Below, piece after piece: positions 2,855 through 38,820 of a stretch of 64,000 nucleotides of DNA (positions are counted from its first letter, which is position 1; each line of letters begins with the position of its first letter). A program made the position numbers and the translations under genes. Under the pieces are notes generated by a model that was not told the DNA's origin, did no database searches, and saw only the letters and a list, made by a program, of their open reading frames with translations. The DNA is from Verrucomicrobiia bacterium. GTDB lineage: Bacteria > Verrucomicrobiota > Verrucomicrobiia > Palsa-1439. The DNA is taken from the NCBI GenBank assembly GCA_022072455.1, contig JAJVHY010000008.1, forward strand, positions 1-64,000, in the 5' to 3' direction.

Positions 2855-3849
2855 TGAAGCAGACGATTGAATGGACGTTCGAACCGCGCAACCCGGTCAT
2901 TCGTCCCCGGCAATTACACGGCGAGTGGGATTTGAACGGGACGGCGGCGGGGCATGTGTTGGATTTGGGTGACTGTTACCGGATGTATTACTGGGGGAGC
3001 AGCCGGCAGGGGAACGTGATTTTGATGGCAGAGTCGCCGAAGGACCGTCCGAACGATTGGCGACCACGCGGGGGCGTCCTATTGGGCCGGCAATTGGAAA
3101 CGGAGCACAATCATCATGGTCCCGGTTTTCCGTTTGTCTTTCCGGTGGCTGGGAATCGCTGGCACATGGTTTACTGCGGCTGGGGGAAACCACGGCCGGA
3201 TGGCGTGATTCCGAACACGACGAATCTGGCTGTCAGTGATGATGCCGGGTTGACGTGGCGGTATCAACCACCGGTGCCGATGATCCCATTAGACCAGGCG
3301 TATGACCAGTTGGTGACTGGCAGCGTGTGGGTGGTGCGCGTCGGAGACGAGTTTCGGATGTATTACACCGCGCTGGGTGAATATATCCACGCGCCGCCGG
3401 GGGTGAAAACCGGTCATGGCGAATGGATTCCACGGATCGGCATCGGTTACGCGACCAGCCACGATGGGCTGACGTGGCAGAAGCCGTTCCGGGATCATCT
3501 GATCGCGCCCCGCGGGTTTGACGCTGACCCATACGAGTACATCAATTCCAAGCCGTGCGTTATTCGCGAGGAGGACGGTTGGCGGATGTTCATCAGCACG
3601 TTTGGGCATGCGTACAGGGTGCGGAGTTTGGTGAGCGCGGACGGATTGCATTGGGAACGGGTGCCGTCGGGGCCGGCCGGTGATCTGGGGGTGGGAGCGC
3701 CGGGGGCGTTTGACGATCATCAGCGTTCGTACGCAAGTGTCATCAAGGAGGGTGACCGGTATCATCTCTGGTACACCGGCAACCGGTTCGGCGCAACCGG
3801 GATGGGGTATGCGTGCGGGCGGTGTGTCGAAGTGACAGAAAGCTTTTGA
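2851..3849 (+). CDS. beta-propeller glycosidase-like protein (copy 2)
   Basis: 332 residues from ATG 2851, chosen because it overlaps the preceding stop as ATGA; an earlier in-frame GTG at 2761 lies deep inside the upstream gene. It shares block order with its neighbour: NPVIRPRQ near the N-terminus, a YYWG blade, YDQL, FRMYYTALGE, GIGYATSHDGLTW, LGVGAPGAFDD and LWYTGNRFGATG near the end. It is therefore a tandem duplicate. Like copy 1 it lacks a signal peptide. The stop codon lies inside the -35 box proposed for tolQ, so the Tol operon begins immediately afterwards. Exact reaction unknown. Confidence 0.65.
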   Translation: MMKQTIEWTFEPRNPVIRPRQLHGEWDLNGTAAGHVLDLGDCYRMYYWGSSRQGNVILMAESPKDRPNDWRPRGGVLLGRQLETEHNHHGPGFPFVFPVAGNRWHMVYCGWGKPRPDGVIPNTTNLAVSDDAGLTWRYQPPVPMIPLDQAYDQLVTGSVWVVRVGDEFRMYYTALGEYIHAPPGVKTGHGEWIPRIGIGYATSHDGLTWQKPFRDHLIAPRGFDADPYEYINSKPCVIREEDGWRMFISTFGHAYRVRSLVSADGLHWERVPSGPAGDLGVGAPGAFDDHQRSYASVIKEGDRYHLWYTGNRFGATGMGYACGRCVEVTESF

Positions 3850-36665: not shown

Positions 36666-36699
36666 CGCGCAGCCCTTTACTTGCCTCGGCGCTTGTGGT

Positions 36700-36732
36700 A
36701 TTACGCAAATCGCGTAACGCAACGTGCGTAAT
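36700..36732. repeat. 33-bp motif array, left copy
   Basis: Three modules, ATTACGC, GCGTAACGC and GCGTAAT, separated by two 5-nt spacers. A hairpin with 6-bp stem (TTACGC/GCGTAA) and 5-nt loop forms at 36701-36717. The array ends at the ATG of the ATPase gene. The modules match the right copy at 37887-37919 while the spacers differ. Confidence 0.7.
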
Positions 36733-37867
36733 GAAAAACCCCTTTGAATACGGCGGTGTGGTCAGCGGAAATGCCTTCTGCAATCGGGAGAAGGAAGTCG
36801 CCGACCTGCTGCGGGCGATGGAAAACAACGAGAAGTTGTTCGTTTTCTCGGAGCGGCGCTATGGCAAGACTTCGCTGGTGCGCACCGCCCTCGGCAAGTT
36901 GCCGAAGAAGGGTTACGTCTGCGCCTACGTGGATTTGTGGCCGACCGACAGCGAGGCCACGTTCGTTACTGCCGTGGCCAAGGCCATCGCCGAGTCCATG
37001 AGCACGTCAGTGGACAAGCTGTTGGAGACGGCCAGGAAGTTCTTCGGCAGTCTCGCCCCCAGCGTGACCATGGACGAGGAGGGCAAGCCGGAATTGACGT
37101 TCGGCATCAGCAAACACGCGCGGCCCGGTCCGGCATTGGATGAAGTGCTGGAAACACCGGCCAAGATTGCCGGTAAGGGTGAACAGAACGTCGTGATCGT
37201 GTTCGACGAGTTTCAACAGATTCTCGAATACGGCAACGACCAAGTGGAGCGAAAGGTCCGCAGCGTGATCCAGAATCATCGCAAGGTGGGCTACATCTTT
37301 CTCGGCAGCCGGAAGCATCTCATCGAAAAAATGTTCATGGATCGCGCCCGGCCCCTGTATCGGGCCGGTGGGCATTATCCACTTGGGCCGATTGCCGAGG
37401 AGCACTGGCAGCCGTTCGTCAGCAAGAGATTTGCCGATGCCGGCAAGACCATCGGCAAGGAACGCATTCATGACGTGTGCGAATTGACTCAGGGCCATCC
37501 GTTTTACACGCAGCACCTCTGCCATGTGCTTTGGGAGTTGTGCGAACCCAAGGCCGAGGTGACCGAGAAGATGATCCAGACGGCCGTGCAGGTATTGTTG
37601 GAACGGGAGAACTACGCCTACACGACGCTGTGGGAGTCGCTGACCGTTCCGCAGAAGCGGTTCTTGAAAGGGTTGGCGACTGATGTGGCGGGGGTGAAGG
37701 TCTTTGCCGGCGAATTCGTCCGTCGCTCTGGGCTTCGCTCCGCGTCAAACGTGCAACGGGTGGTGGACGTGTTGTTGGCGAAAGATATTATTGATCGGGA
37801 CAACGGCTCGTTCCTCATCACTGACCGGTTCTTTCGGTTGTGGCTTCATTCAGCGCAGACGCGCTGA
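36731..37867 (+). CDS. ATPase_2-family P-loop ATPase
   Basis: 378 residues from ATG 36731. The opening NPFEYGGVVSGNAFCNREKE, the P-loop FSERRYGKTSLVRTAL and Walker B NVVIVFDEFQQI fit the ATPase_2 (PF01637) STAND-like family common in archaea and mobile bacterial DNA. A winged-helix-like C-terminal part (KRFLKGLATDVAGVKVFAGEF, split) is likely DNA-binding. Function of such proteins is poorly known; roles in element maintenance or defence are proposed. No ribosome site precedes the ATG, which sits inside a motif array; a matching array follows the stop by 19 nt. Confidence 0.85.
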   Translation: MKNPFEYGGVVSGNAFCNREKEVADLLRAMENNEKLFVFSERRYGKTSLVRTALGKLPKKGYVCAYVDLWPTDSEATFVTAVAKAIAESMSTSVDKLLETARKFFGSLAPSVTMDEEGKPELTFGISKHARPGPALDEVLETPAKIAGKGEQNVVIVFDEFQQILEYGNDQVERKVRSVIQNHRKVGYIFLGSRKHLIEKMFMDRARPLYRAGGHYPLGPIAEEHWQPFVSKRFADAGKTIGKERIHDVCELTQGHPFYTQHLCHVLWELCEPKAEVTEKMIQTAVQVLLERENYAYTTLWESLTVPQKRFLKGLATDVAGVKVFAGEFVRRSGLRSASNVQRVVDVLLAKDIIDRDNGSFLITDRFFRLWLHSAQTR

Positions 37868-37886
37868 GACGCGCCGCTCGATTCTG

Positions 37887-37919
37887 ATTACGCGCCCTGC
37901 GTTACGCTGGCTGCGTAAC
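37887..37919. repeat. 33-bp motif array, right copy
   Basis: ATTACGC, GCGTTACGC and GCGTAAC with two 5-nt spacers, 19 nt after the ATPase stop. A hairpin TTACGC/GCGTAA with 5-nt loop forms at 37902-37918. Module identity with the left copy is high (only the middle A/T and the last base differ), while all spacer bases but one differ. Confidence 0.7.
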
Positions 37920-38223: not shown

Positions 38224-38472
38224 ATGAAAAGGTTCATCATTACGATGGTTGTGCTGGGAGCAACTGTGGCGACCAATTCGGCGCTGGCTGGCAAACTGCC
38301 CAAAGACCCAACGAAATACGACTGCCGTGTCACGGTGCGCATCGAACGCTATCACCAACCTGGCTCGAAAGTGCCCGGCGTCCGCTTCGTCAAGGAATGC
38401 CCGCACAAGGACAAAATGGCCGCCGGCCAGTGCGAAACTCATTGGCTGTTCGGCATGCGCTGCAAGAGCTGA
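38224..38472 (+). CDS. small exported Cys/His protein (copy 1)
   Basis: 82 residues from ATG 38224, after the site GGACGGAGG. A signal peptide is clear (MKRFIITMVVLGATVATNSALA, split at about 22). The mature part holds TKYDCRVTVRIER and a C-terminal block ECPHKDKMAAGQCETHW with FGMRC, giving four Cys and two His. I know no named family. The block is kept almost unchanged in the next gene. Upstream ECF-type promoter and downstream Cus operon suggest a periplasmic metal-binding or metal-stress protein. Confidence 0.7.
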   Translation: MKRFIITMVVLGATVATNSALAGKLPKDPTKYDCRVTVRIERYHQPGSKVPGVRFVKECPHKDKMAAGQCETHWLFGMRCKS

Positions 38473-38532
38473 TGCGCTTGGGGCAATCGCGCTGGATTGA
38501 GTAACCAGAAGTCGTCGAAAGGAGCGTTCAGG

Positions 38533-38820
38533 ATGAAAGCGCAAACCAATACATGGCTGATGCTCGTGGCGCTGCCGCTGTTGGCTCTGAGCGTACCGGT
38601 GGCGGCTCGCCCGCCGACCGGTCCAACGACCAAACCGCTCGGTCCGATCCCGGCAGACCCGACGAAGTACGACTGCCGGGTCACCGTTGAGGTTCGCACC
38701 GTCAAGGCGAAAGGCCGCACGATCAAGCTCTGGGAGCGCAAAGAGTGCCCCCACAAGGACAAAATGGCGGCGGGCCAGTGCGAGACCCATTGGCTTTTCG
38801 GCATGCGCTGCAAGGAGTAA
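38533..38820 (+). CDS. small exported Cys/His protein (copy 2)
   Basis: 95 residues from ATG 38533. Signal peptide (WLMLVALPLLALSVPVAA), then a Pro/Thr-rich stretch and the same core as copy 1: TKYDCRVTVEVR and ECPHKDKMAAGQCETHW, FGMRC. The final about 65 nt are close to identical with copy 1 apart from third-base changes, so this is a recent tandem duplication under selection. All four Cys are kept. Probably metal-binding in the periplasm; biochemical role unknown. Confidence 0.7.
   Translation: MKAQTNTWLMLVALPLLALSVPVAARPPTGPTTKPLGPIPADPTKYDCRVTVEVRTVKAKGRTIKLWERKECPHKDKMAAGQCETHWLFGMRCKE

Follow-up and report, generated by a model that had tools for sequence, protein, structure and literature searches.

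Why should a single bacterial ATPase gene stand between two matching arrays of short DNA motifs? The question is raised by one locus in the stretch of DNA analysed here, 64,000 nucleotides from a contig of a Verrucomicrobiia bacterium, which is called the window below. An earlier note on this DNA offered two answers. The arrays might be the recombination ends of a one-gene mobile unit, or they might be binding sites of the ATPase itself.

The locus and its protein

The features of the locus are as follows.

36700..36732, no strand assigned: left array, with modules at 36700-36706, 36712-36720 and 36726-36732; palindromic; shares two bases with the start codon
37887..37919, no strand assigned: right array, with modules at 37887-37893, 37899-37907 and 37913-37919; starts 19 nt past the stop codon
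36731..37867, plus strand: ATPase_2 gene P0001 (378 aa), an open reading frame with a PF01637 profile match and a predicted fold
36675..36699, plus strand: upstream segment (CTTTACTTGCC...TTGTGGT), probably the promoter, conserved with deltaproteobacterial and verrucomicrobial relatives
37646..37819, plus strand: C-terminal winged-helix domain (residues 306-363), from the secondary structure of the predicted model
37742..37780, plus strand: recognition helix (residues 338-350), from the predicted model; Q342-R343, encoded at 37754-37759, covary with the array

The left array reads ATTACGC-AAATC-GCGTAACGC-AACGT-GCGTAAT and overlaps the ATG (36731-36733). The right array, beyond the TGA of the ATPase gene (37865-37867), reads ATTACGC-GCCCT-GCGTTACGC-TGGCT-GCGTAAC. 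Both positions were checked, and the earlier note had described the locus correctly: two 33-bp arrays bracket the ATPase_2 gene with identical module order and 5-nt spacing, the left one touching the start codon, and the right one at the distance from the stop that the note gave. Its remark that the spacers differ at nearly all positions is also borne out, as the two spacers match at 0/5 and 1/5 positions, or 1/10 overall. Each window array is a palindrome made of two 19-bp inverted repeats (RTTACGC-N5-GCGTAAY) that overlap on the central 9-mer; in relatives, the arrays extend as a 14-bp tandem repeat.

These two arrays are the only ones in the genome. The full pattern has no third copy in its 4.8 Mb, the 21-bp subpattern is absent elsewhere in those 4.8 Mb even when one mismatch is allowed, and a reversed control pattern gave zero matches in the genome. 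The central 9-mer alone is unremarkable (2 in the window, where 0.74 are expected). A regulon of such arrays in the bacterium's own genome was rejected as an explanation, the genome having only the two.

The segment just upstream of the left array is probably the promoter of the ATPase gene. Alignments of the window to two related loci (L070 and L088) begin at 36674-36675; a scan with the sigma-70 consensus made no promoter call in 36675..36699. Downstream of the locus, at 38225-38820, lie two small genes in tandem, each with a signal-like start and both with the ending DKMAAGQCETHWLFGMRC; they look like a duplicated secreted protein.

What kind of protein do the arrays enclose? The assignment to ATPase_2 made in the earlier note holds (PF01637, E = 1.3e-11, 45.2 bits against a curated cut-off of 33.2). 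ATPases of this family are numerous and patchily distributed, mostly without a known job. The predicted model of P0001 (pLDDT 88.8) has an AAA+ core and a clear C-terminal winged helix. Its nearest PDB structures over the whole chain, by Foldseek, are SSO1545 (2FNA, E 2e-12) and PABY2304 (2QEN, E 6e-12), and P0001 has the AAA+ core, the winged helix after it and the fold that define an SSO1545-like ATPase. Further structural matches are to DNA-bound Orc1/Cdc6. This likeness is structural only, as no PDB sequence match was found at E below 0.01. The PADLOC matches, to PDC-S27 and mad8, were weak and covered only part of the protein, the ATPase domain.

Arrays and recognition helices across bacteria

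An exact scan for TTACGC-N5-GCGTWACGC-N5-GCGTAA, using one genome per species, gave at least 113 loci, and two viral contigs bring the total to at least 115. The loci listed come from Bacteroidota, Verrucomicrobiota, Planctomycetes, Acidobacteria, deltaproteobacteria, Elusimicrobia, Bipolaricaulota and others. Among the matches listed, 75 of 115 have an ATPase homologue within 400 bp of the array, encoding proteins down to 26-30% identity, and the commonest place for the array is just ahead of the ATPase start codon. The scan used only a DNA query, so the way in which the genes were identified has no bearing on this enrichment. The spacers of the listed arrays are mostly AnnnT, and some arrays run on with a 14-bp period. 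At the level of sequence, then, the association between array and ATPase is real and widespread. It is also previously undescribed as far as open-licence literature goes, a search limited to such papers having found no description of these arrays.

Loci found by a pattern carry a risk of circularity, and to avoid it homologues were also sought by protein. An alignment of 14 sequences was searched against 289 genomes of the window's phylum, 33 of which were positive, with up to six copies per genome, and against 149 genomes of the Proteiniphilum order, 51 of which were positive. Close relatives carry TTACGC arrays; in more distant homologues, the corresponding position is taken by different arrays, palindromic or tandem. 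Exact inverted repeats with 7-bp arms stand upstream of 60 of 118 homologues; the comparable counts are 24 for downstream regions, 9.5 for coding windows and 14 for shuffles. Where a -10/-7-like box is visible, the array centres fall from -54 to +28 relative to it, which is the typical range for repressor sites. Most family members have one array, usually at the promoter, and paralogues within one genome carry different arrays. The cultivated Proteiniphilum sp. X52 has a single array, on the 5' side.

Another observation concerns the recognition helix. Next to TTACGC arrays, almost every homologue has Q342-R343, or at least R343. Among the homologues found by protein, at least two TTACGC/GCGTAA half-sites lie upstream in 7/9 of those with Q342-R343 and in 5/121 of those with other residues (p = 2.5e-7, duplicates removed). 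Position 343 also pairs with the edges of the spacers: R343 goes with A..T edges (224:32) and K343 with Y..R edges (0:24), the K343 counts including six delta loci that form one clade, so that a p-value for this pairing overstates independence. Outside that clade, the K343/Y..R pairing occurs at L309 (Chloroflexi), L243, L253 and L152, the edges of these four having been read by eye. Here, L309 is the well-supported sister of L117, which has R343 and A..T edges.

Relatives with other helix sequences follow the same pattern, in that similar helices carry similar arrays. The helix SANVSIIK goes with the array TTATTAGTAATAA, ST..SALKRL with TTRCGA...TCGYAA, and PHNVxKNK with TATACC...GGTATAA. The homologues on plasmids and phages have no TTACGC arrays, which at first appeared to be counter-evidence but agrees with the differences in their helices.

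In a global pairwise comparison of helices and flanks, the helix-specific signal was weak (partial rank correlation 0.07, reached in 0/500 permutations), and how alike two flanks were could be predicted from the ATPase domains at least as well as from the helices. This correlation is too weak to separate the helix from the rest of the protein, and only the tests of specific residues are therefore relied on.

An autoregulator is expected to have a site that covaries with its recognition helix and a palindromic site that overlaps its own promoter. The first is seen for the TTACGC type, the global test being weak; the second is seen as well, the window's own promoter being a probable one. Changes in the array go along with changes in the protein, so the winged helix of the ATPase itself most likely has the array as its cognate site. 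Thus, the second answer of the earlier note, binding sites of the ATPase itself, gains strong support from the covariation.

One genus of the window's phylum offers a separate observation. At seven of its loci (L143, L144, L166, L169, L211, L212, L214), two very different ATPase types are interchangeable directly before the same small membrane-protein gene. One of these, L166, has kept the TTACGC array though its ATPase is of the other type.

Paired arrays, mobility and solo arrays

Bracketing like that in the window also occurs at L121, L102 and L110, and alignment places partial copies at the position matching the right array in L022 and L070. With different array sequences, it is found at L165, L311, L315, L324 and L250. 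The earlier note would have been refuted by the lack of a second pair, and these loci, with several unrelated sequences, show that such pairs recur. It also named arrays with no ATPase as a refutation; such arrays exist, and this refutation applies in part. The upstream and downstream flanks of the same locus match strongly in 9.5% of 201 loci, against 0.6% of mismatched pairs. About a third of these matches are other repeats, which leaves about 6% of loci truly bracketed by arrays. L128, L243 and the members of the delta clade have their sole array downstream of the ATPase gene. Simple promoter repression does not account for these members with a 3' array only, and for them bridging, a roadblock or some other role must be considered.

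That the gene itself travels follows from several comparisons. The window protein groups with two deltaproteobacterial proteins inside a verrucomicrobial set (100/91 support; phyla as labelled in the records). The window and L070 share 83% nucleotide identity across phyla, and the elements of L022 and L070 are 91% identical where their flanking gene is only 67% identical. In the window, an intact traD precedes the ATPase, and homologous HTH-ParA-TraD modules in other genomes (L286, L287) have no ATPase after traD; their right flanks differ. Direct repeats of at least 25 bp flank 15/170 ATPase genes and 2/296 control genes, two further control matches having been set aside as ATPase loci themselves.

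Do the arrays serve as the ends of what travels? If so, the ATPase or a host recombinase would join the two arrays to form a circle, and a lone array would be an empty or excised site. The mobility just described speaks for this, as do the recurrence of paired arrays with unrelated sequences, an end point inside the right array common to L022 and L070, a flanking repeat at L238 that duplicates the 3' end of an lnt-like gene, the existence of solo arrays, and a break in synteny between L030 and L085 at one of them. However, the second array is missing in most members, and in Kiritimatiellales, which have no right array, the ATPase stop overlaps the start of the next gene. A fixed target duplication would differ from the flanking repeats, whose lengths range from 25 to over 100 bp and which sit outside the arrays, and there is no recombinase within the unit. 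Between the window arrays, the ATPase is the sole gene, with no transposase or recombinase; around it, no direct repeat of at least 16 bp was found. Related modules without the ATPase are known, yet neither these traD neighbours nor the paired genomes yielded an exact empty site, their flanks differing. For these reasons the arrays are not established as recombination ends, and this answer of the earlier note, which is left with no transposase, fixed target duplication or array-linked empty site to support it, appears unlikely.

A broader proposal makes the array-ATPase unit a new minimal mobile element. Here, the ATPase would recognise its own end arrays and recruit host DNA machinery to copy or move its gene, the arrays would diversify with the helix so that paralogues avoid cross-reaction, and solo arrays would be scars. 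This is distinctly unlikely. An integron gene cassette was also considered and rejected; the core sites of attC are RYYYAAC/GTTRRRY, and GCGTAAC and GTTACGC fit neither.

Three repeats were seen in passing. At L238, an exact direct repeat of 41 bp has one copy upstream of the ATPase (-116 to -75) and one downstream (+62). It duplicates the 3' end of the lnt-like gene that precedes the ATPase; as a stop codon closes each copy, the lnt-like gene is intact beside a 1.29-kb unit. On the Geobacter plasmid pSD, a 32-bp perfect and largely palindromic direct repeat flanks an ATPase homologue (L139:2365-2396 and 3734-3765). The genome of L070 (G325) has a dispersed repeat of ~55 bp in about 30 copies over many contigs (query part 3698-3757).

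Solo arrays raise another reading, that the arrays belong to some other DNA-binding protein of the host, the ATPase simply being often found next to them. Among the matches listed, 40/115 arrays have no ATPase ORF nearby, and 21/32 of the genomes with solo arrays have no ATPase homologue at all. The covariation of array and recognition helix argues against this reading, as do the different arrays of paralogues in one genome. Several solo arrays, moreover, are visible remnants of ATPase loci: L062 and L105 have lost the middle of the gene but kept both ends, an N-terminal fragment is left at L122 and L041, and a 3' fragment at L111. Another host protein is a very unlikely owner of the arrays. 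An ATPase acting in trans on solo arrays was rejected on the same 21/32 genomes.

Two of the solo arrays deserve description. At L105 (array on the minus strand, 2301-2331), an in-frame internal deletion has cut the ATPase to 27 codons. The array survives, and the stop codon still overlaps the start of the following gene, which begins like ThiS. At L030:4175-4205 and L085:6246-6276, two Bacteroidales that are 91% identical over 4.2 kb split abruptly at the right edge of the solo array, with different genes beyond.

That the arrays work as hairpins, in RNA or in a single strand (a 5'/3' UTR structure or a terminator), and not as protein sites is barely credible: judged from its sequence, each inverted repeat could form a hairpin with a stem of 7 bp and a loop of 5 nt, but a terminator-like tail is absent, the modules are invariant in sequence and not compensating, and the position of the array relative to promoter and start varies widely. 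Hairpin terminators were looked for, and that candidate was rejected when none was found.

A proposed self-addressed ATPase and known systems

The reading preferred here, that the arrays are cognate winged-helix sites of the ATPase they flank, that the ATPase regulates itself through them, and that the unit is transferred horizontally, is quite probable on the comparative evidence. The recognition helix of an Orc/SSO1545-like AAA+/STAND ATPase would read the half-site TTACGC/GCGTAA, and two or more overlapping inverted repeats would allow several subunits to bind side by side. Autoregulation is suggested because the array usually overlaps the promoter or the start codon. In the window, the left array lies over the probable promoter and the start codon, and the ATPase most likely represses its own transcription; its ATP state probably sets its affinity for the array. 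The right array would be a second cognate site, kept in a minority of relatives, which would let the two ends of the gene be bridged or read-through be blocked. The gene, its promoter and the array move jointly between distant bacteria as one unit.

If this is so, each PF01637 protein with its own co-changing sites would have a specific DNA ligand. The site could then be predicted from the helix, and the base preference of R343 versus K343 can be tested. It also raises the question of why some copies keep a site past the stop codon.

How does this compare with known systems? The archaeal AAA+ proteins SSO1545 (2FNA) and PABY2304 (2QEN), also ATPase_2, are like P0001 in whole-protein fold, C-terminal winged helix and Pfam domain; a search of open-licence literature turned up no account of cognate DNA arrays for either. 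The mycobacterial IniR is a DNA-binding transcriptional regulator whose ATPase domain has been modelled on SSO1545 (PMC5760070). It has 818 aa, with an SdiA-like C-terminal DNA-binding domain, and activates iniBAC (PMC5760070). Thus, IniR and P0001 have an SSO1545-like ATPase domain in common; the DNA-binding domain of IniR is different, and the accessible text of that paper describes no flanking arrays (PMC5760070). The TnsC-type transposition ATPases have a structurally similar AAA+ core (8GLW, 7MBW), and the window unit differs from them in having no transposase partner.

Orc1/Cdc6 initiators, which act at repeated origin boxes, share with P0001 the AAA+ core, the winged helix and palindromic or repeated sites beside the gene. 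Their structural match to the model (DNA-bound 2QBY, 2V1U) has a TM-score of only about 0.5, and the window family, unlike them, has multiple dispensable paralogues per genome, no sequence match and no sign of an origin. Autoregulated repressors, such as antitoxins and LacI/TetR paralogues, likewise have a palindromic site at their own promoter, and their site and recognition helix likewise change together. Unlike those repressors, the putative regulator here is an ATPase, its sites overlap in an array, and some loci carry a second array, or their only one, after the stop codon.
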